From positions 1,160,501 through 1,224,500 of the forward strand of contig OX031062.1 of assembly GCA_943736015.1 (NCBI GenBank): a DNA stretch of 64,000 bases. Direction: 5' to 3'. The notes under the pieces were generated by a model. That model was given only the letters and a program-made list of their open reading frames with translations. It made no database searches and was not told the DNA's origin. Position 1 is the stretch's first letter. Each line of letters starts with the position of its first letter. Below, one piece after another: positions 5,080 through 45,139 of the stretch. The translations under genes and the position numbers were made by a program. Source of the DNA: Tridacna crocea. Lineage: Eukaryota; Mollusca; Bivalvia; Cardiida; Cardiidae.

Positions 5080-5302
5080 TTAATCCATTACCACACAATC
5101 CCTTCTTTTGACGCCCTCGAGAAAGAAGCCTTTAGAAAACATTGTAGGAAAAGGAGAAAATGCTGGTTATCAGCATTTTATCCTTTTCCTACAATGTTTT
5201 CTACCCTTCACAAAAAAAAATTCAAATTTTTAGTCACTTTTATTTTGTCGTCTGCAAATGCTTTGAATTTGGACAAATATAAAATTTTGTCGTCTGAGTT
5301 AA
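5080..5302 (-). mobile_element. TTAA MITE, subfamily A, with paired stem change
   Basis: Left stem GTAGG (5144-5148) pairs with right stem CCTAC (5188-5192), while the family reads GTGGG/CCCAC. Both arms carry the same private change. TTAA at both ends. Confidence 0.88.
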
Positions 5303-5500
5303 TAAGTGAGTTGGCTATTCATGTGAAAAAAAAAAAAGATTTCAATGAAAAGGATTTACAGCACTTGTGTTGTTAGCCTTCATGTAACAGCTCTTTGATT
5401 TTGTAGATCCAATTAATCCCAGAACAATTTTGGGTCTGTGTAGATTTAAACAAATTTTGTGTAGTTTTATGCTAATAATTGATTCCATTTTTTTTTTCAG

Positions 5501-6082
5501 CTGTGGAAGTAGGTGAGAAACGTCCAGTCAAAGTTGAAACTGCTGAGTGCGGTGTTGTAGACGCTCCATGCCAGCTTACAGCCACCAACCCAGAGGGACT
5601 GGTTAGAGACCTTCCAGTAAAGAAAACACCCAAAGGGTATGAAGCCGAATTTGCCCCACGTGAAGTAGGCTCTCATCTTGTTGCTGTGAAGTATGCTGGC
5701 AACGAAGTACCAAAATCTCCATTCTCAGTGCAAGCAACCCCACAGGGACCTCCAGCCTCAAAGGTCAAGGCCTATGGCCCAGGTTTGGAGTCTGGAATGG
5801 CCACAAAACCATGCAGTTTCACCATTGATACCACAGAAACAACACAACCAGGAGGCCTTGGTGTCACTGTAGAAGGTCCAGCTGAGAGCAAGATTGAATG
5901 CCGTGACAACCAGGATGGTACATGTGATGTCACATATTATCCAACTGTTCCAGGAGATTACAACATCAACATCACATATGCTGATGAACATATTCCTAAA
6001 TCACCATTCAAAGCTGGTATTGTTCCCAGTGGGGACATTGATGTTAGTGGAGTTAAGGCCTATGGCCCAGGATTGGAACCTG
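5501..6082 (+). CDS. FLN: filamin exon 2: repeat 8-like end, complete repeat 9-like, start of repeat 11-like
   Basis: The longest exon here, 194 codons, acceptor TTTTTTTTCAG|CT (phase 1), donor CCTG|GTAAAT (phase 1). It holds three domain segments without an intron: VEVGEKRPVKV to KSPFSVQATP completes one repeat; ASKVKAYGPGLESG to KSPFKAGIVPSG is a full repeat with the hallmark GGLGVTVEGPAESKIECRDN and DGTCDVTYYPTVPGDYNINI; then VSGVKAYGPGLEPG opens the next. By similarity the middle domain matches vertebrate repeat 9 and the following one repeat 11, so a repeat 10 equivalent seems absent. Upstream poly-T gives a strong polypyrimidine tract. Confidence 0.95.
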
Positions 6083-6458
6083 GTAAATATAATACGGCAA
6101 AAAGCATGTGGACCTGGAGTGTGAAGTGTCATAACATCATGAATGGGTTTGACCTGCTCTTGTTTGAATGCATCTGAACTTGCGTTACTAATTTATGAAG
6201 GAAAAAATGTAGCCTTGTATGATGATAAGGTCTCCGCCTTTCATAGAAATTCGTAATCTTATCTCTAGTTTTGCACGGTGAATGAGTAATTCTTTCGGTT
6301 CTGTTAGTAAGGTCTTCATCCTTTTTAGGTCAATGGAGAAAATATGTGTTTCTGTTCTATAACTGATTTGTGCAAATGAGTTGTTTGTGTTACCATCTTT
6401 TTCCCTGCAGCATGACACAAAACTTTCTTTTCTGATGAACTGAGAGTTAGATTGTACC

Positions 6459-6686
6459 TTAACCCTTTACCAAACAATTTTGTATTTTCAAGACCTTGTG
6501 GAAGAAGCCTTTTAGAAACATTGTTGGAAAAGGAGAAAATGCTGATAACCAGCATTTTCTCCTTTTCCCACAGTGTTTTCTACCTTTCCCAGAATGATTT
6601 CTAGTTTCAAGTCTACATAATTATGTAACTACAAATACATATGATTTTTGGCAGGTGTAAAATTTTGTCATTGGGTAAAGCGTTGA
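6459..6686 (-). mobile_element. TTAA MITE, subfamily A
   Basis: Left TTAA, right end decayed to TTGA. One stem arm reads GTTGG against CCCAC. The long arm is diverged. Confidence 0.8.
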
Positions 6687-6690
6687 CTCT

Positions 6691-6735
6691 TTAACTCTTT
6701 ACCACACAAGAAAATTTTAGACTTGGACATTCAGG
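6691..6735 (+). mobile_element. TTAA MITE left-end fragment
   Basis: Only the first 45 bp of a forward subfamily A copy (terminus, AAAATTTTAGAC) remain, 4 bp after the preceding element. Confidence 0.7.
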
Positions 6736-6739
6736 ATAT

Positions 6740-7687
6740 GCTTATCTTGAAACTGCAAGACTAAGTAATGTCTTGATCCTAGACAGAAAATATCTGTAAG
6801 GTTTATTTGGCACTGGAAGGGTATGAGTAGAAACTAACTTGATTGGTGAGAGTGATCTACTAATATACAGGATACTGGCGCGAAATACTACTGTACATGT
6901 GGATATATCATACACATGTTGAAAAATTTGCAAATTTCAGATTACAGACATTTTGCAAATGAAAATTTTTGTGAATTTCAGACACTCATTAATTGTTGGT
7001 GTACTTGCAGTAAAATACACAAACAGAAAATTTGTGAATATTTCAAAATCGCAAAATTACAGTTTTGCTTGTTGCAAAAACTTACAATTGCACAGTAACT
7101 GTTCCTCTATTTTAGAGCTTGCTGATGACAGGAATTCCCGACATTTGACTATTTTACATTTCTGATTATTCTCTAAATAAATGAAAAACACTTTGTCCTA
7201 AGAAAAATCTTTCAGGGACCAGTAATCTGTTTGACTTTTATTCTTGTCTCTACTAATAATGGCACAAGATGTTTAGGTAAGGAAGTAGAGATTTTAGACT
7301 TTTTAGCTTGGTTACAAAAATTATAAGGAGTTGAAATTATATTTATTTGTGTGAAAGTTTAAAATTCATATAAAGGTGAATTTATATTTGCTTGTGTAAA
7401 GAAACTGTAACTATTGTCTACTTGAAGCTTTATTTTCATTTTGAATTTAGTAAAACATTATTTTCAAGATTTTTTTTTTTCCCAGAATAGGTCTTCAATA
7501 ACAATGTGATATGCAATCATGATATATTAAAATAGATTTTTTTGCATGCCCTTTCATTTAGAATGTTCCTAGAATGTGTATAACCTGTCTATGTGTAGCT
7601 GATATGATGATTTTCTGACTGAAGATTTATATGTACTTACAAAGATTTAGTGTTGAGTGACCTCCCTTTATGCTGTGTTATCGTTGT
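6740..7687. other. unannotated intron stretch
   Basis: AT-rich, with imperfect runs of TTTGCAAAT/AAAATTTGTGAA around 6920-7100. No splice-compatible filamin segment, no recognised element. Confidence 0.5.
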
Positions 7688-7915
7688 TTAACCCTTTCCC
7701 AAACAAGCCCTGGTTTTTACGTGTCTGCAGTAAAAGTCTTTTGAAAACACTGCGGGAAAAGGAGAAATTGCTCGTGACGAGCAATTTCTCCTTTTCCCAC
7801 AGTGTTTTCTACCCTGTTTGAGAACTTTCTGGCATTTTCTCCATATCTAAAATTATCGACTGCAAACTCTTTTGGTTTGGAATAGTCTAAAATTTGTCCT
7901 TTGGGAAAGGGTTAA
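7688..7915 (-). mobile_element. TTAA MITE, subfamily C (good copy)
   Basis: 228 bp. Stem GGAGAAATTGCTCGT pairs with ACGAGCAATTTCTCC around one central base. TTAA at both ends. Confidence 0.9.
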
Positions 7916-8721
7916 TATGAAATGAAACATTTAACTATAGCTTTTACTAGCTCAGACCATTATTCAGGCTTCATATCGGCTAATCATTTCATTTTGAATT
8001 TTATTGCTAAATTATAAAGTAAGTTGTCTTGTAGATAGAGCTCAACAGCCAAGCGGATGGTTTGTTCTTTCATATTGGAGGTAGAACAAATGATAAAAAA
8101 ATTTATTGTAAATATGAACCTGATTTTAAAGGCATGATAAATCTCTGTTGTTGTATCACCCCTCACAACATACGTCAGTTTGACGTCACAGGTAGTGATA
8201 TCGCACCCTTGTTATAAAGTCAGTGTGCGTGTTTGGTAAGACTGGGGTTTTTTTGTAATCATTCCTTTAAATGATCTGAAAAAGTCTTTAGACCTCCAAA
8301 GCGTTCAATGCTTAGGGACTTTGTTTTTTGTCAAAGCTTTTGTTAACTACTTGTTATAATGGAATAGACTTCGACCAACAATTAAAACCCAATCACTTTT
8401 TGATATTTGGTCAAAGTGTTTATGCATATAGACATCTGCTTCCTGTCTAAAACATCAGAATATTAAATGTATTTATCCAATGTCTTTGATAAATACATGA
8501 GAGTCTTTGTAGTCCGTTTGTATCCACCCAAGCTAGCCTCATTCTATCTTCATATCGTACTTATTTTTCAATATGGTGGCCATAAGTTATGAAAATGCAC
8601 TTGTCCGATATCACTTCCTGTGACGTAGGTTGTTACCCTTGTGTATGTTTCTGTTGATAAATCTGTGCATTATTGGCGTTCATGCTTCATCACCTTCTAG
8701 CTGGTGCACCACTTTTTCTCT
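7916..8721. other. unannotated intron stretch
   Basis: No recognised exon, transposon terminus or tandem repeat. Short frames only. Confidence 0.45.
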
Positions 8722-8897
8722 CTAATGCTTTACCATCTGACAAAACTTCAGTCTTGCTTATTTGGAAGGGTAGAAAACACTGTGGGGAATACAGAAGGTG
8801 TTGGTTATCAGCAGCATTTTTTTCCTTTTCCCACACTGTTTTCTAAAGCTCCCTTTCTCAGGGTCATTAAAACTGGAGACTGTTTGTTAAGGATTAA
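8722..8897 (+). mobile_element. TTAA MITE, internally deleted
   Basis: Left end CTAA, right TTAA. About 50 bp of the long arm is missing and the stem has decayed. Confidence 0.75.
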
Positions 8898-8988
8898 CAA
8901 TGCTCTTACTAGATATCTGTGATATTTTTATATCTTATGCAAAGTTACTGTACAGATCAGATAAATCTTAAGATAATTTTTCATGAAT

Positions 8989-9083
8989 AGATAGAAAAAA
9001 AGTCTCTGTAAACGATAACTGTTTTTAACTATATAAAAAAAAGTCTTTGTAAAAGTTAACTGTTTTTAACTATATATGAAAAA
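8989..9083. repeat. two-copy direct repeat
   Basis: AAAAAAAGTCT(C/T)TGTAAA...TAACTGTTTTTAACTATATA occurs twice in tandem with a period of about 46 bp. Confidence 0.6.
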
Positions 9084-9305
9084 CTCATATAAGAGATAGT
9101 TTTTATAACATAGTATTGCATTATCTAACAATAGATTCTTGATATTGTTTCAGTGAAATAAGTGTGCCAGTGTCATAAACAGCTTTCAGTACAGTTTTAA
9201 GTTGTTATTGTATACATTGCTAGTAATTTGAATGATTCACATATGAAACATGTAGTTACACACACTGCCAGAATGACATTGAAATTGTAATGAAAAGACT
9301 CTCTT

Positions 9306-9535
9306 TCAACTCTTTACCAAACGGGGAAATTTTAGACTGGTCCAAATTGAAAGCATTTGCAGACGACAAAATAAATGTGACTGAAAAATTTTAATTTGTT
9401 CTGGGAAGGGTAGAAAACACTGTGGGAAAAGGAGAAAATGCTGGTTACCAGCATTTTCTCCTTTTCCCACCGTGTTTTCAAAAAGGCTTCTTTCCCAGGG
9501 GCGTTAAAAGTAGGGATTGTGTGGTAATGGGTTAA
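9306..9535 (+). mobile_element. TTAA MITE, subfamily A
   Basis: Full length; left TCAA, right TTAA; hairpin nearly perfect (CCCACCGTG in one arm). Confidence 0.88.
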
Positions 9536-9657
9536 TAGTGGCTAGACATTCTTGTTGCATTAGACAGTAGATCTATTAGAATGAACTTGAAAGAGAAATG
9601 ATTTGTCAGTGAAAACTGTTTATCTTCTAGCATATGAAAAATATAACATACATCGTT

Positions 9658-9849
9658 CAGAGCTCCAGATAGAGGGAGTGATTTTGATTTCAAAGTTGAA
9701 AATATCAATTGTTCTCAATTAAACCGTATGTCGTGGGTACTCAATAGAATCATCTCATCGACACAATTTTTATGAATACCTACAACTTAGGGTTTGTAAG
9801 AGAAATAATGGATTTAGAATACCGTCACTCCTTTTTATCTGGAGCTCTG
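9658..9849. mobile_element. GAGCTC fold-back MITE (family G), copy 1
   Basis: Inverted termini CAGAGCTCCAGATAGAGGG and the matching GGAGCTCTG end. The centre is an imperfect palindrome (ACTCAATAGAATC...). Two relatives at 13338 and 33789 define the family. Ends 54 bp before exon 3. Confidence 0.75.
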
Positions 9850-9903
9850 TCATTTCACTACTTGTACTATGTTTTAAAAAAATTCGGATTTTTATGTTGC
9901 TAG

Positions 9904-10077
9904 GTGTATTCCTGGACTCTCCAACCGGCTTTACTGTGGATGCTAAGTCTGTGACACCTGAGGGTGCCGGAAAGGTCAGGGCCATTGTTACAAGTCCCAG
10001 TGGACAGAGAACAGAGAGTCTGGTGAAGAACAAGGGAGACGGCACATACGATGTTCTTTACACTCCCTATGAACAAG
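9904..10077 (+). CDS. FLN: filamin exon 3: core of repeat 11-like domain
   Basis: Fifty-eight codons, acceptor GTTGCTAG|GT and donor CAAG|GTAATG, phase 1 on both sides. Contains the strand-C to strand-F core: SPTGFTVDAKSVTPEGAGKV, TSPSGQRTESLV, then the filamin signature GDGTYDVLYTPYEQG. The VFLD...FTVDA opening and ALT/SVT stretch match vertebrate repeat 11, supporting its order directly after the repeat 9-like domain of exon 2. A MITE end fragment starts 9 bp after the donor. Skipping this symmetric exon would keep frame but destroy the Ig fold. Confidence 0.94.
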
Positions 10078-10085
10078 GTAATGCA

Positions 10086-10112
10086 TTAACCGTTTACCAC
10101 ACATTCTCGAGC
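10086..10112 (+). mobile_element. TTAA MITE terminus fragment
   Basis: TTAACCGTTTACCACACATT only. Starts 8 bp downstream of the exon 3 donor dinucleotide. Confidence 0.6.
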
Positions 10113-10113
10113 T

Positions 10114-10332
10114 TTAACCCTTTCCCAAAGACAAACTTTTGGACTAGACCAAATTGAAAGCATTTGCAGATGACAATTCAACTCTTGCTGAAAAGATTAT
10201 TTCTGTCTATGATAGGGTAGAAAACATTGTGGGAAAAGGAGAAAATACTGGTTATCAGCATTTTCTCCTTTTCCAACAAAAGGCTTCTATTCCAGACCCG
10301 CAAAAACCAGGGATTGTTTGGGAAAGGGTTAA
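10114..10332 (+). mobile_element. TTAA MITE, subfamily D
   Basis: Subfamily D is marked by CAACTCTTGCTGAAAAGAT in the long arm and CAGGGATTGTTTGGGAAAGG at the right end. TTAA at both ends; the right hairpin arm lacks the outer ATGTTTT segment. Confidence 0.88.
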
Positions 10333-10363
10333 GAATCTTGATAAAGAGAGCCTCTGATGGAAG

Positions 10364-10638
10364 TCAACTCATTACTAAATGACCAAATTTTAAACTGGTC
10401 CAAATTGAAAGCATTTGCAGACGACAAAATAAATGTAACTCAAATTTGTTTTGTGAAGAGTAGAAAACATTGAGGGAAAAGGAGGAAATGCTGATTTCCG
10501 GTATTTTCTCCTTTTCCCACTATGTTTTCATAAGGTTTCTTTCTCGTTGTTGTTATAAGGCGGGATTTTGTGGTAATGTTTTCAAAAGGCCTCTTTCTCA
10601 GGGTCGTAAAAAATTGGGATTGTGTTGTAAGGATTTAA
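10364..10638 (+). mobile_element. TTAA MITE, subfamily A, duplicated short arm
   Basis: The short arm occurs twice in tandem (ATGTTTTCATAAGG...GTGGTAATG then TTTTCAAAAGGCCTC...), lengthening the element. Left end TCAA, right TTAA. Confidence 0.8.
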
Positions 10639-10680
10639 AACATCAGATTGTTTGATAACCTATTAAAATGATTTATTATG

Positions 10681-10730
10681 TGTAGATCAAGAGTAGACTG
10701 CACAGAATGTCCTGTCTGGTCTTCGATTAG
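10681..10730. repeat. GATCAGACTGCACA-type palindrome, degenerate
   Basis: GTAGATCAAGAGTAGACTGCACAGAATG followed by a decayed second arm. Dispersed family, better copy at 40648. Confidence 0.5.
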
Positions 10731-10939
10731 TATGTGGTATTTTTTTTGTGTGTGAAATTTTTGATAATTCAATAGAAATCTTTCATCCATCAGTCGAACT
10801 TTTTCATTTATGGGTTACCTGTAAAAGTGTTTGGTTTACTTGAAAATAGCCTGTTAAGTGTTTATGGAAACTTAATCGCTTTCAGAAAATCATGTGGAAA
10901 GATAGATGAAAACATAATTGCATTCAGGAATACATGTGA

Positions 10940-11165
10940 AGAGTTAGTTGAAAACTTAATTGCTGAGAGGGATACATAGGAAATGATAGTTGGAAACATA
11001 ATTGCTGAGAGGGATACATGGGAAGTGATAGTTGGAAACATAATTGCTGGGAAATGATAGTTGGAAACATAATTGCTGAGAGGGATACATGGGAAATGAT
11101 AGTTGGAAACATAATTGCTGAGAGGGATACTTGGGAAATAATAGTTGGAAACATAATTGCATTCA
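10940..11165. repeat. 42-bp minisatellite
   Basis: About six tandem units of AATTGCTGAGAGGGATACAT plus GGGAAATGATAGTTGGAAACAT; one unit has lost about 18 bp. Because 42 is divisible by 3 the minus strand stays open, giving a spurious repetitive frame. Confidence 0.85.
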
Positions 11166-11277
11166 CAAAAACATGTGAAAGATAGTCACTAAAAGAAAAC
11201 AATTTTTATTTGACTAAATGTTTTCGAAGGTTTCCGATTCAAGATTAAAGAAAAAGTTGTATGCAGGTGATTATGTG

Positions 11278-11507
11278 TTAACTCTTTACTCCATAGATAC
11301 TCATTTCTACGCATTGCTTGTAGGAGCCTTTGGAAAACATGGTGGCAAAAGGTGAAATTGCTCGTGATGAGCAATTTCACCTTTTGCCACAATGTTTTCT
11401 GTGCTATCAAAATGTGTCATATACGCATAAGAAACGGCTTCATCCTTGCTGTTGTTTAGGGTCAATTAGTTAAACCATAGAAAATGCCTTATGGGGTAAA
11501 GGGTTAA
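11278..11507 (-). mobile_element. TTAA MITE, subfamily B, against exon 4 acceptor
   Basis: Full length with intact stem (GGTGAAATTGCTCGT...). Its right TTAA ends 17 bp before exon 4, so only ATAATCAATGTTTTCAG separates element and exon; the branch point must lie in or at the edge of the MITE. Confidence 0.9.
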
Positions 11508-11524
11508 ATAATCAATGTTTTCAG

Positions 11525-11848
11525 GACCCAACACCATTGACATTACTTACGAGGATGTACCCATCCCCCAGAGTCCTGTCAAGGTTGAGGCCACACCTGG
11601 CTGTGATGCCAGCAGAGTTAAGGCCTATGGCCCAGGTCTGGAGGGAGGTTTGACAGACCAGCCCCAGGTGTTTACTGTAGATGTGAAAGGGGCAGGTCAA
11701 GGGGGATTGGCCCTTGCTATTGATGGCCCCGCGGAGACCCAGATCAACTGTAAAGATAACAGAGATGGTACCTGTGAGGTGGAATATATACCTGTCAAGA
11801 AGGGAGACTATGACATCACTGTTAAATTTGCTGATCAGCACATCCCAG
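11525..11848 (+). CDS. FLN: filamin exon 4: end of repeat 11-like and most of repeat 12-like domain
   Basis: One hundred and eight codons, acceptor GTTTTCAG|GA, donor CCCAG|GTAAAA, phase 1 both sides. First PNTIDITYEDVPIPQSPVKV closes the repeat 11-like domain; then CDASRVKAYGPGLEGG opens the next, with GQGGLALAIDGPAETQINC, KDNRDGTCEVEYIPVKKGDY and FADQHIPG. The GAGxGGLxLAxEGP pattern and order match vertebrate repeat 12. The exon is tightly bracketed by two MITEs: one ends 17 bp upstream, the other begins 10 bp downstream. No frame damage results. Confidence 0.95.
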
Positions 11849-11858
11849 GTAAAAAGAT

Positions 11859-12086
11859 TTAAATTTTTACCAAAATGACAAAGTTGTAAACCAATCCAAA
11901 TTGAAAGCATTTGCAGAAGACAACATAAAAATGGCTCAAAAATTGAAATTTGTCTTGGGAAGGGTAGAAAACATTGTGGGAAAAGGAAAAAATACTTGTT
12001 ACCAGCATTTTCTCCTTTTCCATAATATGTTCAAAAGGCTTCTATCTCGGGCTGTTAAAAGTCTGGATTGTGTGGTAAAGAGTTGC
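11859..12086 (+). mobile_element. TTAA MITE, subfamily A, against exon 4 donor
   Basis: Begins at the TTAA 10 bp after the exon 4 donor GT; right end decayed to TTGC. Stem mildly mismatched. Confidence 0.87.
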
Positions 12087-12253
12087 TGTGAATTGAACCA
12101 ATTTCTTACATAAATCTTTTGGGCCACGCTATTTTCAAAGACACTGAAGTATCATCAATTTATTTTAGCTGTATAGTTGTTTACATCATCTGTTGTTGTT
12201 GTTGTTCTATAACTGTGACATTTGTGTCTTTGCCATTCAAGAAGATACTTACT

Positions 12254-12482
12254 TTATCCCATTACCACAGAATCTCTACTTTTAGCGCCCCTGAGAAAGA
12301 AGCCTTTTGAAAACACTGTGGGAAAAGGAGAAAATGCTGGTAACCAGCATTTTCTCCTTTTCCCACAGTGTTTTCTACCCTTTCCAGAACAAATTTCAAG
12401 TTTTCAGTCACCTTAATTTTGTCATCTGCAAATGTTTTCAATTTGAAACAGTCTAAAATTTTGTCGTATGGTAAAGAGTTAA
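12254..12482 (-). mobile_element. TTAA MITE, subfamily A
   Basis: 229 bp, left end TTAT, right TTAA. Stem pair ACACTGTGGG/CCCACAGTGT intact. Confidence 0.88.
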
Positions 12483-12531
12483 CTGAAGCACTCCTGACTA
12501 TTGACAGAATAAGTCTTATTACAGTAACATG

Positions 12532-12615
12532 TCAATTCAGGCTCACAATACCATTTGGTAATAAACCGAACCATTTTGCATTTAAATTCAGGCTCACCAT
12601 TCCATGTTGGAATCC
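12532..12615 (+). repeat. two-copy duplication of exon 5 acceptor edge
   Basis: AATTCAGGCTCAC.AT.CCAT.TTGG occurs at 12534 and again at 12585, the second being the real acceptor and first exon bases. Period 51 bp. The first copy could act as a cryptic 3' splice site. Confidence 0.55.
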
Positions 12616-12762
12616 AGAACCCAGTGAACCCAGCCAAGGTAAAATGTTACGGCCCGGGCGTGGACTCTAAGGAAGTGAAGACCAATGCCCCAGCTACATT
12701 CACTGTGGACACAACAGAGGCCGGTGAAGCACCATTAGATGTGACTTACACTGACAAAAATG
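12592..12762 (+). CDS. FLN: filamin exon 5: end of repeat 12-like, first half of repeat 13-like domain
   Basis: Fifty-seven codons, acceptor AAATTCAG|GC, donor AATG|GTATAT, phase 1 both sides. SPFHVGIQNP closes one repeat; AKVKCYGPGVDSKEVKTNAP opens the next; APATFTVDTTEAGEAPLDV is the strand C-D region. The short GEAPLDV form (no GG loop) parallels vertebrate repeat 13 (GVAPLQV). A partial copy of the acceptor lies 51 bp upstream, and a subfamily B MITE starts 19 bp after the donor. Confidence 0.94.
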
Positions 12763-12781
12763 GTATATGATTCTTTTCTAT

Positions 12782-13010
12782 TTAACCCTTTACTCCATAG
12801 ATACTCATTTCTACGCATTGCTTGTAGGAGCCTTTGGAAAACATTGTGGCGAAAGGTGAAATTTCTCGTCACGAGCAATTTCACCTTTTGTCACAATGTT
12901 TTCTGTGCTATCAAAAGGTGTAATATACACATAAGAAACAGCTTTATCCTTGCTGTCATTTAGGGTCAATTAGAGATAAGATAGAAATGCCTTATGGGGT
13001 AAAGGGTTAA
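12782..13010 (-). mobile_element. TTAA MITE, subfamily B
   Basis: 229 bp. Stem has GTGGCGAAAGG against CCTTTTGTCAC. Shares its right TTAA (13007-13010) with the next element. Confidence 0.9.
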
Positions 13011-13236
13011 CTCTTTACCATATAATTCAGACTTTTAATGACCAGTGGGAGACAAAGCGTTTGAAAACATTGTGGGAAAAGGAGAAAATGCTGGTTACCA
13101 GCATTTTCTCCTTTTCCCACAGTGTTTTCTACTCTTTCCAATTCGAAAACTAAGTTTTGATTCACATTTATTTTGTCGTCTGCAAATGCATTGAACTTGA
13201 GCCAGTCTAAACTTTTGTCGTTTGGTAAAGAGTTAA
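13007..13236 (-). mobile_element. TTAA MITE, subfamily A
   Basis: Abuts the subfamily B copy through one common TTAA. Hairpin intact. Confidence 0.88.
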
Positions 13237-13337
13237 TCTACACAATCCTGACTTTTACCAATCCTCAGGTAGAAGGTTTTTCTATATATTGTTGGGAAAG
13301 GAAACGCATGGCTAAAGGAGATTATAAGCAGACATCA

Positions 13338-13519
13338 TATAGGGGAGTGATTTTGATTTAAATATTTGAAATATTAATTACTCTCCTCTAAACCCGGTGT
13401 TGTGGATACTCATTAGAATCGTCTCATTGAAAAGATTCTAATGAATATCCACAACATAGGGTTTCAAAGAGAAGTAATGGCTTTCGAATACCTACTTATC
13501 CTCTTACCTGAAGCTCTGA
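13338..13519. mobile_element. GAGCTC fold-back MITE (family G), copy 2
   Basis: GGGGAGTGATTTTGATTTAA start, strong inner inverted repeat (ATACTCATTAGAATC / GATTCTAATGAATAT), right end GAAGCTCTGA. Left terminus decayed. Confidence 0.7.
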
Positions 13520-14351: not shown

Positions 14352-14372
14352 GTAATTTTATGTTCTTTTGTT

Positions 14373-14460: not shown

Positions 14461-14462
14461 CG

Positions 14463-17672: not shown

Positions 17673-17708
17673 GTGAGAGCTCATAGAATTTGTAAGATGC
17701 ATTTCTTT

Positions 17709-17845
17709 ACACCCAATCTAGAGTTTTAACAACCTGGAGCAAAAAGTCTTTTGAAAACCTTGTGTGAAAAGGAGAAAATGCTGGTAACCAGCATTTTCTC
17801 CTTTTCACACAAAGTTTTCTTCACTTTCGCAAGCAATCACTGTCA
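17709..17845 (-). mobile_element. TTAA MITE fragment with paired stem change
   Basis: Stem GTGTG (17762-17766) pairs with CACAC (17806-17810) instead of GTGGG/CCCAC. Termini lost. Confidence 0.8.
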
Positions 17846-18023
17846 GCTACAAGTACATTGTATAATTTTGTTATTCCTAAGCTGTTTGTCACTTTCCAAC
17901 ATAACCATTGTCAAAACAAGAGATCATAAATAAGAAAGAGTTGCATTCTGTCACAATGTCTGTCATCAATCCTCGGGGAAAGTATTGGCCAAGCCAGAAA
18001 TTTCAAGCAGCTACGTCCAAGTT

Positions 18024-23120: not shown

Positions 23121-23336
23121 CTAGACAAAATTTCAGACTGGTCCAAACTGAGTCATCATACAGATGACAGATTAAATTTTGTTTTCACAAAATCAGATTT
23201 TGTCTTTGATAGGGTAGAACACATTGTGGGAAGAGGAGAAAATGTAAGTTGCCATCATTTTCTCCTTTTCCCACAATGTTTTCAAAAGCCCTCCTCAGGG
23301 TTTGTTAAAATACTTGTAAAGTGTAAATGGCTTTAT
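23117..23336 (+). mobile_element. TTAA MITE, diverged
   Basis: Stem tip altered (ATGTAAGTTGCCATCAT). Right boundary joins the next element. Confidence 0.72.
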
Positions 23337-23562
23337 CCCTTTACCCCATAATGGCATTTCTATGGCATCTCTAATTGACCCTAAATTACAGCAAGGATGA
23401 AGCCGTTTCTTATGTGTAAATGACACCTTTTGATAGCATAGAAAACATTGTGACAAAAGATGAAATTGCTCGTCACAAGCAATTTCACCTTTTGTCACAA
23501 CGTTTTTCAAAGGCTCCTACAAGCAATGTGTAGTAATGAGTATCTATGGAGTAAAGGGTTAG
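23333..23562 (+). mobile_element. TTAA MITE, subfamily B, paired stem change
   Basis: GTGACAAAAG in one arm pairs with CTTTTGTCAC in the other, while most B copies have GTGGC/GCCAC. Left TTAT, right TTAG. Confidence 0.85.
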
Positions 23563-27771: not shown

Positions 27772-27998
27772 TTAACCCATTACCACACAATCCCTGGTTT
27801 TTACTACCCCGAGATAGAACCCTTTTGAAAACATTGTTGGAAAAGAAGAAAATGCTGGTAACCAGCATTTTCTCCTTTTCCACAATGTTTTCTATCCTGC
27901 TGGAAACAAATTTCTATTTTTGTGTTACATTTATTTTCTCGTCTACAAGCGCTTTCAATCTGGACCAGTCTAAATTTCATTGTTTGGTAAATGGTTAA
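27772..27998 (-). mobile_element. TTAA MITE, subfamily A
   Basis: TTAA both ends, right one shared with the D element. Stem GTTGG. Confidence 0.88.
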
Positions 27999-28223
27999 CC
28001 CTTTCCCAAACGACACACTTTTGGACTAGAACAAACTGAGAGCATTTGCAGACGACAATTCAACTCTTGCTGAAAAGATGATTTCTGTCTATGACAGGGT
28101 AGGAAACATTGTGGGAAAAGGAGAAAATGCTGGTTACCAGCATTTTCTCCTTTTCCCACAATGTTTTCAAAAGGCTACTATTCCAGACCCGTAAAAACCA
28201 GGGATTGTTTGGGAAAGGGTTAA
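27995..28223 (+). mobile_element. TTAA MITE, subfamily D (good copy)
   Basis: 229 bp, TTAA both ends; perfect central stem; short arm GGCTACTATTCCAGACCC. Confidence 0.92.
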
Positions 28224-36172: not shown

Positions 36173-36186
36173 ATTGTATTTACCAT

Positions 36187-36567: not shown

Positions 36568-37847
36568 AGTCTTGATTGTATAGTCAAGTGTATAGAGCTG
36601 AATGAATGCAATGGACTTTTTTACCGAGGAAAAACAGCCTACCGTAAAACGCTGTGTATACCACGCAGGCATGTGTAACACGCAGGCCTTTTTCAGCATC
36701 AGATCCGAGGAAAAAAGGTTGTTCAGATGTACAACACGCATCAAAAATTGACCAAAATATCGTAACATGTGAAGCTTAGGTCGCTGTCTTGAAAAATTGT
36801 AAATGGCGATACTTTATCAAAGGGAAATAACCATTTTTAATCAAAGTGGAAATGGTAATGATTCGATGTGTACTTGGGGGATTACAAAAACATGCCAGCT
36901 TATGACATTTGCAAATTCACACATTGAACTAACGACCATATCGTAGTTAATCTCCTATTTTCTCACCTCCATCGACAAATGTGACATGTGTGAAATAAAC
37001 ATAGATCTATATGATGTAAATCACGGTTTTTGTAAAAAGTAGCGATAAATGTATATATTTTTAAATCATTCATTTCTTTATGAATCGTTATTTTACTCTT
37101 TTATAATTGTTCAATTTTAGCTATTAACAAAGAATAAAAAAAAAATGAGACGAATCAGACGATAACAGTAAATCATTATTTATCATTCCGGGGTACGTTC
37201 GCCGTTGCCAAAATGGCTGATAGAATCGGGAAATTACGAATCCTAATCGACAAATTAAGAATGTACAAGTACATTTTAACAAAATTAAAACATAAAGTTT
37301 TTTTTTTTAATCGGTAAAAGTTGAAATGGGATGATGACGAAAGTTAAGGCTGTTGCGAGAGAACTTTACAGTTTTGTACCTACGCCACTCCCCCACCCAC
37401 CCACTCTGAACAGGTATACGACTGACTTTCAAGGAGGAGAAAAACATGGTTTTGCCTATTGTAGTGTATAACACACAGTCCCCAGTTTGAAATTATTCAG
37501 AGCTGAAAAAAAGTGTGTGTTATACGCACCAAAACACGGTACTTATTGCTATTTGGAGGTTGTTTGAGCCAGAATGTGAGACACACTGGATCGACATTTA
37601 TGGACTTGGATGAGACTGCATATTCTGTGCAGTCTGATCATCACCTAAGCTATCCACAAATACAATGTAGTAACAGTGCCTTGAGGCTAATTAAAGTAGA
37701 GTTAGATAAGGTACAGAGTAATTTCCTGTCTAATATAAAAACACATGTTTGCCGAATTATAGAAATCGGAAATTGAATCAAAGAATGTTAAACAAAAATC
37801 TTGAAGTGTACGGAGTTCTTTGCTATACCTAGAATTAATTAAGTTAC
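36568..37847. other. intron stretch with possible 900-bp TIR element
   Basis: TACCGTAAAACGCTGTGTATACCACGCAGG at 36641 resembles the reverse complement of TGTGTTATACGCACCAAAACACGGTA ending at 37541, so 36641-37541 may be a non-autonomous DNA element. Support is only partial terminal similarity. The 87-codon + frame at 37513 has no recognised family. Confidence 0.35.
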
Positions 37848-38134
37848 TTAACCCTTACTCAAGCAGCAAATTTTAAATTTTCTTAAATTTGTAATATCAG
37901 CTCAGCTAGTAATTCTAAATCAGAATTGGTACAAATAAGCTTTAGTCTTATGTAAGAGTAGATAACATTGTGGAAAAAGGAGAAAATGCTGGTAACCAGC
38001 ATTTTCTCCTTTCCCCACTATGTTTTCTATGTTTCTTAAGACATCTTTATCTTTTTTGAGCTAAATTGAATTTTCATCTGTAACTGCTTTCAGTTTGGAT
38101 AATTTTAAAATTTTGTTATTTAATAAAGGTTTAA
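37848..38134. mobile_element. symmetric TTAA MITE, long arm on both sides
   Basis: 287 bp. Left CAGCAAATTTTAAATTTTC and right AATTTTAAAATTTTGTTATT are both long-arm termini around an intact hairpin. TTAA both ends. Confidence 0.75.
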
Positions 38135-38358
38135 CACATTACCAAACAAAAAATTTTAGGCCTGTCCAAATCGAAAGCATTTGCAGACGACAAAATGAAA
38201 GTGACTGAAAATTTGAAATTAATTTTGTGAAGGGTAGAAAACGTTGTGGGAAAAGGAGAAAATGCTGGTTAGCAGCATTTTCTCCTTTTCCCACAATGTT
38301 TTCAAAAGGCTTCTTTTCCAGGGGCGTCAAAAGTAGGGATTGGGTGGTAATGGGTTAA
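38131..38358 (+). mobile_element. TTAA MITE, subfamily A
   Basis: Shares TTAA with the previous element; flanked by a 96-bp direct repeat. Confidence 0.88.
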
Positions 38359-38451
38359 GACAACTTTATCTTTTTGAGCTAAATTGAATTTTCATCTGTA
38401 ACTGCTTTCAATTTGGATAATTATAAAATTTTGTTATTTAATAAAGGTTTA
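38355..38451. repeat. second copy of MITE long arm
   Basis: TTAAGACAACTTTATC...AATAAAGGTTTAA repeats 38038-38134 with few changes, flanking the subfamily A copy. Confidence 0.85.
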
Positions 38452-38519
38452 AACCTCTAAATTGATTGGTAGAGGATAAATGTATGACCTCAAGGGATGG
38501 CCTAATTGATATCAGAAGT

Positions 38520-38600
38520 ATTTACTTATATACTTACATAAGTAAATAGCAATCATGTTACATAGATGAGTTTACTTATGTAAGCATTTTTACTTACAAA
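38520..38600. repeat. TTTACTTA(T)GTAAG inverted-repeat cluster
   Basis: ACTTACATAAGTAAATAG and GTTTACTTATGTAAGC can pair. Confidence 0.6.
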
Positions 38601-38625
38601 AATAACTGATTGTGTGCATGATAGA

Positions 38626-38833
38626 ACTTTTTAGGCTTGTCCAAATCGAAAGCATTTGCAGACGACAAAATGAAAGTGACAGAAAATTTATAATTAGTTT
38701 TGTGGAGGGTAGAAAACGTTGTGGGAAAAGGAGAAAATGCTGGTTACCAGCATTTTCTCCTTTTCCCACGATGTTATCAAAAGGCTACTATTCCAGACCC
38801 CTAAAAACCAGGGATTGTTTGGGAAAGGGTTAA
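38626..38833 (+). mobile_element. chimeric TTAA MITE: A-type long arm, D-type short arm
   Basis: Long arm AGGCTTGTCCAAATCGAAAG as in the A copy at 38131; after the hairpin GGCTACTATTCCAGACCCC and GTTTGGGAAAGGGTTAA as in D. The switch falls in the palindrome. Confidence 0.82.
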
Positions 38834-39103
38834 AAAACGAGGGTGGAACAACCATGGCTTTCCCCATCGCAGATTTTCAAACTGTGCCAGTCTGTTTGAT
38901 TTCAGCAGAAATAATCCTCTAAATTGTTATAAATGGGTTTTTAGAGTAATTTGCCCTCTCTACGCCTGAAAAAAATTACCGTTTCGATCAGTTACGGATT
39001 TATCTAGTCTTTTACGCATTCCTTTCAAAGCTTAATTTTCATAATAGATTCTGCATGGTTCAGTGGGAGTAAAAATTAGGACTTGTAACCAGGAAGCCCT
39101 GGG

Positions 39104-39334
39104 TTAAACTCTTTACCAAACAACAAAATTTTAGACTGGCCCAAATTGAAAGCACTTGCAGACAACAAAGTAAACAGAAGTCAAAAATCGGAATTTGTTT
39201 CCAGCAGGGCAGAAAACATTGTTGGAAAAAGGAGAAAATGCTCATTACCAGCATTTTCTCCTTTTCCCACAATGCTTTCTAAAGGCTTTTTTCTCTGGGT
39301 CGACAAAAGTAGGGATTGTATGGTAATGGGTTAA
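39104..39334 (+). mobile_element. TTAA MITE, subfamily A
   Basis: Long arm variant with TTTCCAGCAGGGCAG; stem tip ATGCTCATTACC mismatched; TTAA both ends. Confidence 0.87.
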
Positions 39335-39528
39335 GCCTAATTAGAAGCACTTTGTTGTTTTTGAGAGTGCCCTTAGGCAAGCCACTATATCCAACTATAG
39401 CACTACTTTTTCTATGAAAAATATCAATCAAAGTCGGCCTGCACAGTCAGCGTAGGCTGATCTGGGCCAAAAAATTTCCTGTTGTTTAATTTCCCAGAAC
39501 CTGTCTACCTCACAATTCAGTTGGTTTG

Positions 39529-39759
39529 TTAACCCTTTACCTGAAATGCCAATTTGAGGCTCTTCCATTTCAGCAGCAAATAAAGATATGATGTCAAAAA
39601 TATGGACAAAATGAGGACACAAATATCTGATTGTGTGGAAAACATTGTGGAAAAAGGAGAAATTGCTCGTTACGAGCAATTTCTCCTTTTCCCACAATTT
39701 TTTCTAAAGCAGTCTGTTGTTGTTACATCAAAATGAGTATCTATGGAGTAAAGTGTTAA
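39529..39759 (+). mobile_element. TTAA MITE, subfamily E (intact copy)
   Basis: Long arm TGAGGCTCTTCCATTTCAGC and AAAGATATGATGTCAAAAAT, C-like stem GAAATTGCTCGTTACGAGC, short arm ATCAAAATGAGTATCTATGG. TTAA both ends. Confidence 0.87.
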
Positions 39760-39964
39760 AACAGTGACTTTAATAGATTCAGAATTATGATAGCTTGACT
39801 GGTACAGTGCATCACATAGATGTAGTCAGGAAATGGCTCATGACTGTACATTTTCAAGACTGTTTAGCATGGCTATCTCATAAACTGTACAACAATGTAG
39901 ATTTTCTAAGGTTACATCAGCAAGTCTCAACATACAAGAAATTGGACAAACAAGCCAAAAAGAT

Positions 39965-40292
39965 GAAAATATGAAATTGTCTAATTTGAAAGCAATTACA
40001 GATGACCATTTAGATGTTACGGAGATGATTGAATTTATTCTAAATATGGCAGACAGGTTCCCTTGCCTTTCTCATAAAGGGATCATTTGACTCCTTTCAT
40101 GTTAATGAGAGTAATAAAGTGTTAAATTTCAGGGACATAAAGAAAATTTGGGGGTCCCAAGTCAAGGAAGTAAGGAGTCGGTATAAACCCTGGGTAGGAA
40201 AAGAAGCTGTTTTCCCACTTTTTCTCCGAGTGTTCCCTTAAGGCTTCTTCCGGAGGTTCATTAAAATTCAGGACTGTGTGGTGGAGGGATAT
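39965..40292. mobile_element. two strongly decayed TTAA MITE remnants
   Basis: Long-arm TTTGAAAGCAATTACAGATG near 39985, and short-arm AAGGCTTCTTCCGGAGG near 40240. Hairpins almost lost. Confidence 0.45.
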
Positions 40293-41540
40293 TATGTAGT
40301 CAAGTAGGCTGATGCCTTGTTAATGGATACTAGGAATGCTTTTGTTTAGTCAGTGCATAAGAAACCCAACACTTTGCCCAGTGTTATTTGCATTTATGAA
40401 AGGGAGGTAATTTTGCTAATGGTGTTTTACTCTGTCTCATTTTGTTCCGCTCATCCACAGGAAGCAACATAAAATATTCTTGGCAACTGTCAGACTTCCA
40501 GTGAGAGAGAGGGAGAGAGTATAAAGATGTTTGTTAGATAACTTGTATAACTCTTTCACTACTAGATGAATAAACTAGATTTTCACAAAGGCTAGCAGAC
40601 AATTCTCTCTGTAAGATCAAGAGATGGGTCATAATCTAGTATATAGCTGTGGACAGTGCAGATCAGAGATCAGACTGCACATTCTGTGCAGTCTGATCTT
40701 GATCTACACTGTCCACAATTAAGCTTCAAGTATCATTTGTGGTGTGGAAAGAGATAAGGGGAAGATTCTAGTGTGCCAACAAAATCAGATGAATGAGTAG
40801 AAAATGCCATTAAGTTGAACATTCTTAGAATTTTTGTTAAACTGTTAAGTGAGTGTGCTTATTGTCTGTCAAGACATTAATCAGTGCCTGCACAGACTGT
40901 TTAAAAAAATTACAATAACTGTAGTTGTATAAAGGGAATCATTAACAAATAGAAAATTAACTTCTTGGATGATATAAAATCAAAAAAAAAAGAAGATTAT
41001 GGAAATGGGGCTATAGCTCAGTAAGAAGCAGTCAACGTTATTCAACAAATATCACTACTTTTCTTACAATGTTTTTAAGGTTTAAAGCCCTTAACTCATT
41101 GGTAAACATCTCTTTTGTGAAGAACATTCAGGCAATCTTGGCAACGTCCGTCTTTTAATATGAAAGTTTGGGGGGGGGGGGTAGACTCCCTCACTCATTG
41201 GTAAATATTGTTTTAGATCGATGTACTCGTAAAGGCTCATCAGCCAATCTTGGCAGCTTACGTCTTTTAATATTAGAGTTAGGGGGCCATAGGCCTTAAA
41301 CAGTATGATATTGTAGGGGCGTACACTTTACAAATAGTTAGGTATTTATAGTAAAGATGATAAAGAACTAAAAATCTAACTTCTAAAACTCGTTCACAGC
41401 CAGTTCTTCTTTAATCTTAATTGGAATCAAAATATGAAAAAAATACCTCAATATTTTTCAATTTAGATATTGGTAAAAATTATGCTGGAGTAATAATGAA
41501 TGTTTCTGTATCGCATTTTGAAGTTACTGCATCATTCTAT
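40293..41540. other. intron stretch with one palindrome and GAGA tract
   Basis: Contains GAGAGAGAGGGAGAGAG (40504-40520), the good GATC palindrome at 40648-40717 and a G10 run near 41170. No exon-like segment. Confidence 0.5.
40648..40717. repeat. GATCAGACTGCACA palindrome (best copy)
   Basis: 70-nt inverted repeat from TGTGGACAGTG to CACTGTCCACA with CAGACTGCAC/GTGCAGTCTG core. At least ten related copies are scattered through the window. Confidence 0.85.
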
Positions 41541-41869
41541 GCTAACTCTTTACCAGAAAAAACTAAATGTGAACTTATTCGAACTGAAAGCATTTCAGTG
41601 GTTTAATTCCAAAACCTTGTAACTATAGCTTGTTTCAAGCTGTAGTTATGAGGTTTTGGCAGTAAACTGAGGATTTGTAGCTAAAAGATTAAAGGTGGCT
41701 CAAGTGGCAGGGTTTTTGTTTGAAAAGGCAGAAACCTGTGTGGGAAAAGGAAATAAAAGGCTGGTCAGAACTGTTACTTGCAATTTCTCCTTTTCCAACA
41801 ATGTTTTCAAAAGCCTGTGTCATCAAGGTTGGTAACCCTATAGTTATATATGGTAAAGAGGTATATGAA
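41541..41869 (+). mobile_element. diverged TTAA MITE with nested palindrome
   Basis: TAACTCTTTACC terminus, GAACTGAAAGCATTT, interruption at 41609, then decayed stem and TGGTAAAGAGG end. Confidence 0.6.
41609..41664. mobile_element. short palindrome (family P), copy 2
   Basis: TTCCAAAACCTTGTAACTAT...TAGTTATGAGGTTTTGGCAG, same element as 36456, again within a TTAA MITE. Confidence 0.72.
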
Positions 41870-42830
41870 TTGTACCATGCTGTGGCAAAAGGGGGCTTAA
41901 TGAATCACCGTAATTCATGGTACCAAGTAAGCCATCACAGACTTCTTCATCCCTAATAGCCATATTTTTTTACCACAGCCCACTTAATCATGATGCAGAC
42001 TGGACCATGAACATAATAAGAATAAAAGTTTTGGTCCAGTTCAGACTGCCCAGGCTGACCTGTGCTGATACTTTTTGGGGATACATTAAGCCTCGTTTTC
42101 ATAGAGCATGGCTTGAATTATAATTATACATGTATTTGCATTGTTTGAAAATGATTACTAACACAGCTTTTAGATTTTCATAATACCTTTTATTTTCCTT
42201 TCATCCCATGAATTTCATACTTTTCATTAGTTTGTTGGGAAATAATGGTGGATTATAAAGTTTGATAATCTACGATTATGGCCAGTGAAATTATCTATGA
42301 ATGTTTCATGAACTCTTCAATTGAAGACCGAAACAGTTATTTCCGTGCACTAATTATATAGGTAAACTACCTATGAAATAAAGTCAAAGACGTGGCCACA
42401 ATAAATTTTCAGATATAGTGGAGTGTATATCCAAGAACAAACTGTATTTTTGATGCATCTAATCTTGAACTACACTGTCAATAAAAACTCACAAAGTTTT
42501 CCATTGCATGCTGAAATTTAACCCATACACTATTAATTAGATTAACATTTTTTGTCCAAGTTCAACCAGAATGTGTAAATATTAATGACAGTGGAGATCC
42601 AAGATGAACTGTCTGATCTTTGTCTGCACTGTTTGCAAATAAAATGAATTTCCTTGTAGTGTTTCATGGGTTAAAATATTATTTCTGTGTCTTCAGCTTT
42701 CTGAAACAGTTAACATTACAGAAATAGGTTTTTTAATACAATCATATACTTGCTTTGTGTTCTAGTTTGCCTTTATAGAGTTTGTGCATGATGCATGTTC
42801 TGATGTATACTTTTTTTCTGCATGTTTTAG
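41870..42830. other. intron stretch before hinge exon
   Basis: Weak GATC palindrome halves near 42460 and 42590-42640. The last 60 bases are the pyrimidine-rich acceptor of exon 10. Confidence 0.5.
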
Positions 42831-42875
42831 GCTGTCAATGAGGCCCAGTATCAGGAATACCTTGCCCAACACCCG
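42831..42875 (+). CDS. FLN: filamin exon 10: 15-codon hinge-1 cassette
   Basis: A 45-nt exon between TGCATGTTTTAG| and CCG|GTAGGT, phase 0 on both sides. It encodes AVNEAQYQEYLAQHP, not Ig-like, polar and Tyr/Gln-rich, just after the repeat 15-like domain: the place of hinge 1 in vertebrate filamins, a flexible, calpain-sensitive linker that is alternatively spliced in some paralogues. Because length and phase are symmetric, skipping it would shorten the linker without shifting frame. Short length makes this less certain than other exons, but splice signals and reading frame fit both neighbours. Confidence 0.8.
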
Positions 42876-42960
42876 GTAGGTAGTACAGAGTTATCACTTA
42901 TCCTGTAAAGTAACTAAAATTGAAGTTTTGAATAGATAGTAACACCTCAAATATTTTCAG

Positions 42961-43189
42961 TTAATCCTTTACCAAACAATCCCTGGTTTTTACGACCCTG
43001 AGAAAGAAGCCTTTAGAAAACATTGTGGGAAAAGGAGAAAATGCTGGTAACCAGCATTTTCTCCTTTTCCCACAATGTTTTCTACTCCACTGGAAACAAA
43101 TTTCAATTTTAGAGTCATATTTATTTTGTCGCCTGCAAGTGCTTTCAATTTGGACAAGTCTAGAATTATGTTGTTTTGTAAAGAGTTAA
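42961..43189 (-). mobile_element. TTAA MITE, subfamily A, perfect 67-nt palindrome
   Basis: 229 bp, TTAA both ends. 43016-43082 is a perfect odd palindrome (33-bp stem around one A), the best hairpin seen here. Confidence 0.93.
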
Positions 43190-43221
43190 GTTTTGTTTTG
43201 GGGAATGATATCGCCTTGTGG

Positions 43222-43281
43222 GACAGAGCAGATCCAAGATCAGACAACACAGACTGTGCAGTCTGATCTTGATTTACACTA
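43222..43281. repeat. GATCAGACTGCACA-type palindrome
   Basis: GCAGATCCAAGATCAGACAACACAGACTGTGCAGTCTGATCTTGATTTACAC. Confidence 0.75.
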
Positions 43282-43329
43282 CCCTCAAAAGGTCAGCAAG
43301 TCACAATAAGCAGCCTTAGGATTAAAACA

Positions 43330-43552
43330 TTAACTCATTACCAAAGTGGCACAATTTTAGGTTTGTCCAAATCGAAAGCATTAAATTTTGCAGACAATAA
43401 AATAAAAGTGACTGAAAATTTGAAATTTGTTTTGTATAGGGTAGAATACATTGTGGGAAAAGGAGAAAATGCTGGTTACCAGCAATTTCTCCTTTTCCCA
43501 CAATGATTTTTAAAGGCTTCTTTCTCGGAGTCGTCAAAAGTAGCAATTTTAA
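43330..43552 (+). mobile_element. TTAA MITE, right terminus lost
   Basis: Stem GGAGAAAATG against CAATTTCTCC (one mismatch); right end decays after GTCAAAAGTAGC. Confidence 0.82.
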
Positions 43553-43568
43553 TCAATATGAATTGATT

Positions 43569-43791
43569 TTAACTCATTACAACACAATCCCGATATTTAA
43601 CGACCCCCTAGACAGAAGCTTTGTAAAAACATTGTGAAAAAAGAAGAAAATGCCGGTAACCAGCATTTTCTCCTTTTCCCCCACAGTGTTTTCTACCATG
43701 CTGGAAATAAATTTCAGTTTTTGATTTCTGTTTATTCTGTCTTCTGCACATGCTTTCATGTTAGAAGTTTTGTTGTTTGGTAAAGAGTTAA
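43569..43791 (-). mobile_element. TTAA MITE, subfamily A
   Basis: TTAA both ends; stem with GAAGAAAATGCCGG variant. Confidence 0.85.
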
Positions 43792-44026
43792 TTGAAAAGT
43801 TGGAAAAAAAGGGGATTCTGAAAGTTGTCAATATTACCCACAGTGCTGCCATACTGTCACACAATTGTTACAGAGCTGTTGTGATAAATACACTGTTGTA
43901 TTTTGTCCTTTGTTAAAAGTTAATGAACCTGGAGCCTAGCATTCTTTGAGCTCTCTTAATTAGACTTTTAATAAGATCTGCTGGAAAAATGGAACTGAGT
44001 CCTATATTTCATTGTGATCCTTCTTA

Positions 44027-44244
44027 TTAACCTCTTTCCTCACAATCCTGAGTAACAAAAATACCATGTTATCCAACTCAGAGGAAGAAGGCCTTTTAAA
44101 AACATGGTGACCAACATTTTCCTCCTTTTCTCACTATGTTTTCTACACTTTAAAAAACAAACCCACTAACTTAACCTAAGACTGTTTTGTGGCTTTTAAT
44201 ATTTTTAATATGAACCAGTTTATAGCTTTGCTGAGGACTTGACC
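44027..44244 (-). mobile_element. degenerate TTAA MITE
   Basis: TTAACCTCTTTCC left end, extra 20 bp in short arm, collapsed stem, decayed long arm. Confidence 0.55.
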
Positions 44245-44245
44245 T

Positions 44246-44911
44246 AACTTTCAGAATCAGTGCCAAGAACTCTTTGTAGAAAAAAGTAGGCCCTCTAGCT
44301 AGCTGGAGAAATTACAAAACACGAGAAACCTTTAGCTAAACAATCTCCTGTTTAATTAACCATGAAGAAGAAGGTCCTTGAAAATAGAAATATTTTGCAT
44401 CTTTTATGAAATAATCCTCTCATTTTAGTCACATGTAATTTTTCAACTGCAACATGGCTCCAATATTGAGTAGGCCAAAAGTTCGATGCCTTTATAAAGG
44501 AGTCTTTTTTTCTGATTGTTTTTGTTTGTAGTAAAAAGAAATCAGAGGTTAGAAGTATTCTTTAGACATTCCACTATTATATGAACTTTCAAGGTGAATC
44601 ATTTATTGAATGAATGAAGGCTAGCAGATTCTAAGTAAGAATATAAAAAAGTTGGTCACATATGGGAAAAAAAAAACAAGCAGGTTGGCAGGTTTTTTAC
44701 CTACCAACTTAAGTTGAGCTAAGTTTGCCAACGCACACTGCAGTAAATGGCATGAAAAGCAATGAGGGAAAGGGAGCAGTTGTTTTTGTATGTTAGGTCT
44801 AAAAAAAAATAATTCTTAAAAGCACTTCCACTTGAAACTCACATTTTCTGGCTATGAATGAACGTAGATGAAATACAAAGATCTTTTCCTTTCATCTTTG
44901 CTAATTAACTT
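44246..44911. other. unannotated intron stretch
   Basis: Weak MITE-like arm near 44340-44480. An AGCAGGTTGGCAGG/CCTACCAACTTAAG hairpin near 44680-44710. No exon seen. Confidence 0.45.
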
Positions 44912-45139
44912 TTAACCCTTTACAACATAATTCGGTGTTTTAACAATCCTAGTTAAAGGTCTTTTGAAAACAATGTGGAAAAAGTAGAAAATGCTGGTAA
45001 CCAGCATTTTCTACTTTTTCCAACAATGTTTTCTACCCTTGTTGAAGAACTTCACTTTATTTGTACCGCTTTGAATTTTTTATCTGTAAATGCTTTGAAT
45101 ATGGAAGAGTCTAAAATTTGTTGTTTGGCAAAGGATTAA
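44912..45139 (-). mobile_element. TTAA MITE with paired stem change
   Basis: GTAG (44984-44987) and CTAC (45011-45014) replace GGAG/CTCC symmetrically. TTAA both ends; followed by a second 5' terminus fragment to 45160. Confidence 0.88.

Follow-up and report, generated by a model that had tools for sequence, protein, structure and literature searches.

The DNA described here is a stretch of 64,000 nucleotides of the genome of the bivalve Tridacna crocea (contig OX031062.1, C7:1160501-1224500), referred to below as the window, in which a short repeat carrying a long hairpin occurs many times over. The consensus obtained from profile searches is about 229 bp long, ends in TTAA and resembles a miniature inverted-repeat transposable element (MITE), and the copies fall into families that are called A, B and C. 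The stems of these hairpins carry changes that are paired between the two arms, an observation that was confirmed, and in searches of the whole genome (1.05 Gb, 31 contigs) matched transversions exceeded what independent mutation would give at four of the five stem pairs tested (19, 21, 27 and 30; P < 0.005).

The A consensus starts with TTAACCCTTTACC at its 5' end and finishes with GGTAAAGAGTTAA at its 3' end, and its hairpin consists of a 33-pair stem with a one-base loop. Profile searches identified 325 copies across 288 kb. The window holds 127 of them, covering 24,345 of its 64,000 bases (38%), and twenty 10-kb stretches elsewhere (18 of them at 5.0 Mb of C1-C18) hold 155, which make up 13.4% of 200 kb and extrapolate to a genome total of about 0.8 million copies. 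The window is thus nearly three times as rich in the element as the sampled stretches (38% versus 13% of bases). Genome-wide, an exact 12-pair core enclosing 0-30 bases of loop or gap occurs 246,575 times. Of the contigs, 18 are 40-77 Mb long and several have TTAGGG arrays near their ends, as fits an animal. The repeat resembles MITEs in being short (229 bp consensus), in its abundance (325 copies found within 288 kb) and in having a short terminal inverted repeat (TTAACCCTTTACCA versus TTAACTCTTTACCA). TTAA is found at both consensus ends and in all 54 end-aligned copies, but the search model itself holds TTAA. In TTAA at both ends and the short terminal inverted repeat the element is like the piggyBac-like TTAA MITEs; the assignment is drawn from the ends, and the superfamily name should be taken as a lead only.

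The original prediction stated that the stems of families A, B and C differ and yet stay complementary, which is borne out by the consensus sequences. Between A and C there are three differences in the stem, each of them paired, and between A and B four paired differences, one half change leaving a G.T, and a different loop base. Most of the paired differences between families are transversions (A-T/T-A, G-C/C-G), so that a two-step route through a G.T wobble is impossible for these pairs. Two subgroups of family A (76 and 9 copies) differ at 26 of 162 flank sites and at 0 of 67 hairpin sites, which indicates that source elements keep the stem; selection, if any, plausibly acts on source elements. 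Among the 21 B copies scorable at pair 12, 10 have G-T, 9 G-C and 2 A-T, and both A-T copies as well as 4 of the 9 G-C copies show, at sites 125, 126 and 158, the flank states usual for G-T copies. A mismatch-bearing (G.T) B source thus seems to have been amplified. With G-T as the commonest state at pair 12 (10 of 21), B copies seem to have been mismatched from insertion; they could serve as a direct assay, in which the initial mismatch is followed directly.

Genome-wide, 173,858 copies have all 17 inner pairs as in the consensus (some 174,000 copies with an identical 35-base hairpin core), and matched changes were tested on copies departing from the consensus at a single pair. Doubles were considered when G>T or G>C had occurred on both arms at one pair, the other 16 inner pairs being fixed, and T-A, C-G and non-matching doubles were tallied by eye. 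T-A, C-G and mixed doubles were treated like genotypes, the deficit of mixed doubles giving a measure of shared origin (index F) and the non-matching transversion doubles serving as internal null. Restriction to transversions removes the frequent transition. The age of a copy then drops out of F, and a difference in spectrum between the arms can reduce F but never raise it. Pairs 19 and 21 gave identical T-A/C-G/non-matching counts (26/17/7) among the 50 doubles listed of 270 and of 156, respectively, with F 0.71 and a one-sided P of 3e-7 in both cases (F 0.70 at pair 21 without three tandem duplicates). The counts were 20/10/10 at pair 27 (all 40 of 40; F 0.47, one-sided P 0.003) and 35/7/8 at pair 30 (50 listed of 118; F 0.53, one-sided P 5e-4). 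When all changes were counted, pair 19 had 8,219 and 8,143 one-sided copies and 2,870 doubles, and 44 of 50 listed doubles matched where about 30 were expected from the spectrum of listed rows (A 75, T 11, C 14). Attribution of this excess to one A-T subfamily was rejected, since T-A and C-G are in excess too. The product of F and the number of doubles amounts to about 19 copies at pair 27 and 192 copies at pair 19, and the share of one-sided transversions affected is estimated from the listed spectra at 0.8% and 4.7%. At the two measured pairs, copying between arms would accordingly touch roughly 1-5% of one-sided transversions.

Kinship was examined in 20 carriers of three paired alleles (8 pair-21 C-G, 8 pair-19 C-G, 4 pair-19 T-A), taking 250 bp for each. 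Flank identity within these groups, compared with that in divergence-matched background groups, was 0.61 versus 0.62, 0.56 versus 0.59, and 0.77 versus 0.76, respectively. The carriers are therefore not closer in their flanks than the background and do not look like subfamilies; in these 20 carriers of three alleles, the paired alleles seem to represent independent events and not one inherited change. For alleles of the local sample described below, carriers of A-T at pair 11 are unrelated, those of A-T at pair 19 are related via one copy pair, and those of A-T at pair 27 gave P 0.06. The outer stems of the 16 C-G carriers contain 7 further paired and 24 one-sided changes, against 28 and 481 in the background (Fisher P 0.002) and 2 and 52 in a background with intact inner stems (P 0.01); relative to non-matching changes, further paired ones are not clearly more frequent in these carriers (P 0.26). 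One carrier (L039) is an ordinary A copy, with a flank divergence of 0.11, in which the C-G pair is the only stem change. Three others (L042, L045, L050) have strongly diverged flanks, no scorable stem mismatch and two paired changes each, the search pattern having selected intact inner stems. Perfect stems in copies with diverged flanks were also considered as a stand-alone proof and dropped, as the patterns select for them.

Among the 84 hairpins recognised by motif scan, one copy (L018:7813-8075) is three-armed: a left arm with two departures from the consensus is followed by its perfect complement, and then by a right arm lacking both departures. The loop base was scored in 216 safely oriented A copies, in which T occurs 34 times, G 9 times and C 3 times; at stem A/T sites, A>T changes reach 2.4% on average and 10.5% at most, compared with 34 of 216 in the loop. 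None of 23 T-loop copies has a T-loop copy as its nearest flank neighbour (2.5 expected), unlike 15 flank sites of at least 10% frequency, most of which are common to nearest neighbours above expectation. The B loop is G in 15, C in 6 and A in 1 of 22 copies. These loop flips are suggestive as a sign of arm copying.

Counts in the local sample were made on 205 unascertained A copies, pair 7 being left out. They comprise 927 one-sided changes, 45 matched doubles and 42 non-matching doubles; 8 of 150 complete stems are perfect, and mismatch between the arms climbs with flank divergence from 6% to 23% of pairs. In inserted copies, changes in single copies are thus mostly independent decay. The paired changes announced for single copies are indeed present, but paired cases only had been listed, and one-sided changes dominate (927 versus 45 matched). 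One-sided transitions leave G.T and A.C equally often (237 and 242), so the sign of a selected RNA hairpin, tolerance of G.U over A.C, was not found among one-sided changes, and no selection is visible on inserted copies. Shuffles stratified by divergence (153 copies) gave 18.0 matched doubles where 31 were seen, a number reached in 0 of 300 shuffles, and 21.9 non-matching doubles where 28 were seen, reached in 29 of 300. As a separate observation, even between the 33 closest pairs of flank neighbours in family A, divergence of the stem (5.1%) is about half that of held-out flank sites (10.8%); this is not expected from unbiased arm copying, and flank subfamily structure or detection bias may be involved.

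Copies in the window include those from which the paired changes had been described, and the letters are as claimed (GTAGG 5144/CCTAC 5188, GTGTG 17762/CACAC 17806, GTAG 44984/CTAC 45011). The A-family copy at 5081..5297 (plus strand) has its stem arms at 5135-5167 and 5169-5201 and carries a paired G>A/C>T at pair 11 (5146/5190), with two one-sided changes besides. In a second A-family copy (17706..17860, plus strand), the G>T/C>A at pair 12 (17765/17807) is a paired change, and a C/A double at pair 6 is unpaired. In an A-like copy with diverged flanks (44913..45138, plus strand), a paired G>T/C>A at pair 19 (GTAG 44984/CTAC 45011) is recognised by eye. Because the right arm contains a one-base insertion, the script alignment scores this change as one-sided, and the example is not among the 45 matched doubles. 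GTGAC/GTCAC was reported at 23333 and 60361, which are the low ends of two minus-strand B-family copies (23333..23561 and 60361..60581), and both stems carry it at pair 12. T on the right arm is the state met most often in B at this pair, and only the left-arm A, which restores pairing with it, is distinctive; the loop of the second copy is C, the complement of the commoner G. Taken one by one, these examples prove little. The seeds of the family models also lie in the window, all on the plus strand: 12255..12482 for A, with C-G at pair 7, a state common to its flank neighbours in the family; 11279..11507 for B, with G-C at pair 12; and 7688..7915 for C, with stem GAAATTGCTCGT/ACGAGCAATTTC.

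We consider it probable, with some reserve, that source elements keep the stem, that inserted copies then decay mostly on one arm, and that one arm is occasionally copied onto the other during replication. The observations that carry this explanation are the excess of matched doubles, the 20 carriers unrelated in their flanks, the additional paired changes in the same copies and the three-armed copy. The element would be a non-autonomous, TTAA-ended repeat of about 229 bp whose sources keep the 33-pair hairpin, probably as an aid to amplification, and whose inserted copies would decay, mostly by changes confined to a single arm. From time to time in replication, the nascent strand would fold back or switch strand, so that one arm templates the other; a one-sided change would then be erased or made paired, the loop base might be flipped, and rarely an extra arm might be left behind. 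From the last two outcomes we infer that template switching in replication, and not cruciform repair, does the copying, and the paired differences between families would have arisen by the same arm copying before amplification. The claim that independent decay would not produce paired changes has to be narrowed accordingly: decay explains most single-copy changes, and the matched transversion doubles go beyond independence at four of five pairs. Of the two causes first proposed, copying between the arms is retained as a minority process, and selection for the stem is plausible at the level of the source only.

A number of results weigh against the explanation by arm copying. Pair 18 was not significant (39/2/9 among 50 listed of 251; F 0.20, one-sided P 0.17). 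The local index of like-with-like doubles, which corrects for a general inflation of doubles such as the shuffles showed, is 0.13 at true partners (45 of 87 matched, 38.5 expected) and lies within the scatter of slid registers (-0.24 to 0.28, each on 5-35 doubles); taken alone, this sample is therefore no proof of covariation. Copies with few one-sided changes have an excess of non-matching doubles (10 versus 3.3 expected) alongside that of matched ones (17 versus 2.5), and flanks have diverged further in copies with paired changes (P 0.008), which is what subfamilies would predict. At pair 27 (3,995 and 3,827 one-sided copies, 251 doubles), counting transitions as well left no clear excess, 28 of 50 listed doubles being matched versus 26.3 expected from the spectrum of one-sided changes in 100 listed rows (A 69, T 19, C 12); the absence of any copying that this would imply was overturned by the transversion-only class, as frequent transitions had swamped the signal. 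The local counts suggested that copying changes with distance from the loop, but pair 30 did not bear out such a gradient. Differences between copies in mutation spectrum could raise F, and since only 20 carriers of three alleles were compared, clonal groups of a few copies per allele may exist. The three-armed copy is a single one. As to the loop, 9 of 145 other A/T sites, all in flanks, reach the level of loop T, T loops belong chiefly to copies whose flank divergence is 0.2-0.3 (24 of 89), loop C in family B is common to the nearest neighbour in 3 of 6 copies (1.4 expected), and no T loop was found among C copies.

Some of these results would suit selection in the mobile pool, according to which only well-paired stems amplify, ordinary second hits compensate, transposition enriches the compensated stems and dead copies have inherited their paired changes. 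The more diverged flanks of carriers agree with it, as do the paired family differences, the stem conserved between sources (0 of 67 hairpin versus 26 of 162 flank differences), the passage of B through G.T at pair 12 and the C-G at pair 7 common to flank neighbours. Such enrichment proceeds via clones, yet copies that have a given rare paired allele in common show no kinship, some of them (L038, L042, L046) have altered left ends and diverged flanks, and the three-armed copy is left unexplained; we therefore regard this explanation as unlikely. Alternatively, arms may be copied when an extruded cruciform or hairpin is repaired, by mismatch repair or by gene conversion from one arm to the other. 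Unrelated copies would then likewise be expected to have matched pairs, with no strong gradient along the stem, as was observed, but simple mismatch repair neither adds a third arm nor flips the loop, and there is little probability that repair rather than replication accounts for the copying. Chance coincidence in old copies together with undetected subfamilies, without any copying, would fit the dominance of one-sided changes, the copies with at least five of them (46 doubles, 38.9 expected), the full class at pair 27 and the local index, but is quite improbable, since chance with uneven copy age would raise non-matching doubles equally, yet F is 0.47-0.71 at four of five pairs, and subfamilies would have common flanks, which the 20 tested carriers do not.

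Some rearranged copies were met in addition. At L015:6370-7676, two pairs of MITEs about 854 bp apart resemble a tandem duplication, and the plus-strand copies have a common left half and different right halves, as if a breakpoint lay in or near the hairpin. Four copies at G000:C4:49998260-49999816, spaced by about 507 bp and all with T-A at pair 21, form a small tandem array containing the hairpin. In the window, the copy at 38625-38833 has left flanks almost identical to, and right flanks very different from, those at 27995-28223 and 50936-51164, which suggests a mosaic element. Possible recombination at the hairpin is represented by three discordant copy pairs, one copy being common to all three.

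Paired stem changes are usually taken as proof of a selected structure. Should pairs come about through arm copying too, in repeat copies on which selection is unlikely to act, then covariation alone would be no evidence of function in a multi-copy hairpin. Tentatively, and as a possibility that we hold to be somewhat less than even, the family may be read as a genome-wide recorder of quasipalindrome correction, with some 174,000 copies of known stem, 1-5% of one-sided transversions converted over the life of a copy, loop flips and an occasional third arm, the paired differences between A, B and C being the same process captured by amplification; apparent compensatory evolution would then need no selection on the stem. 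In the part of PMC7954356 concerned, a method applied to great apes classes many quasipalindrome-to-palindrome conversions as non-significant; this is the class met here, and for these mutations, which that comparative method is reported to score poorly, the family offers a natural assay that is large and replicated. Template switching between arms is itself an already known process, and the replicated natural assay is the point of interest; no title among the matches listed reports such switching for the hairpins of a MITE family.

The zebrafish Angel elements are palindromic MITEs proposed to fold into a hairpin, and the likeness to the present element is one of description. Drosophila DINE-1 is likewise an abundant short element with a self-complementary, varying stem, which, in a portion of PMC2374699, is said to vary between species while staying self-complementary and is read as compensatory; that stem has 7-11 nt near the 3' end, whereas the stem described here has 33 pairs near the middle and was tested within one genome. 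Quasipalindrome correction, or short-range template switching, has in common with the present case a near-perfect inverted repeat perfected by arm copying, inversion of the loop (spacer) and inserted inverted copies, and arm homogenization with recurrent spacer inversion is described for yeast strains in an excerpt of PMC8604942; such studies compare strains or parents, whereas here the process is deduced from a multi-copy mobile element in one assembly. Template switching that maintains RNA stems is treated in sections of PMC8794818, where multiple compensatory changes in rRNA are enriched as template switching predicts, and the two cases are alike in that several simultaneous compensatory changes are attributed to it. 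Those stems belong to functional rRNA, whereas the stems described here lie in inserted repeat copies that show no RNA-type tolerance of G.U, which leaves little room for selection acting on the copy.

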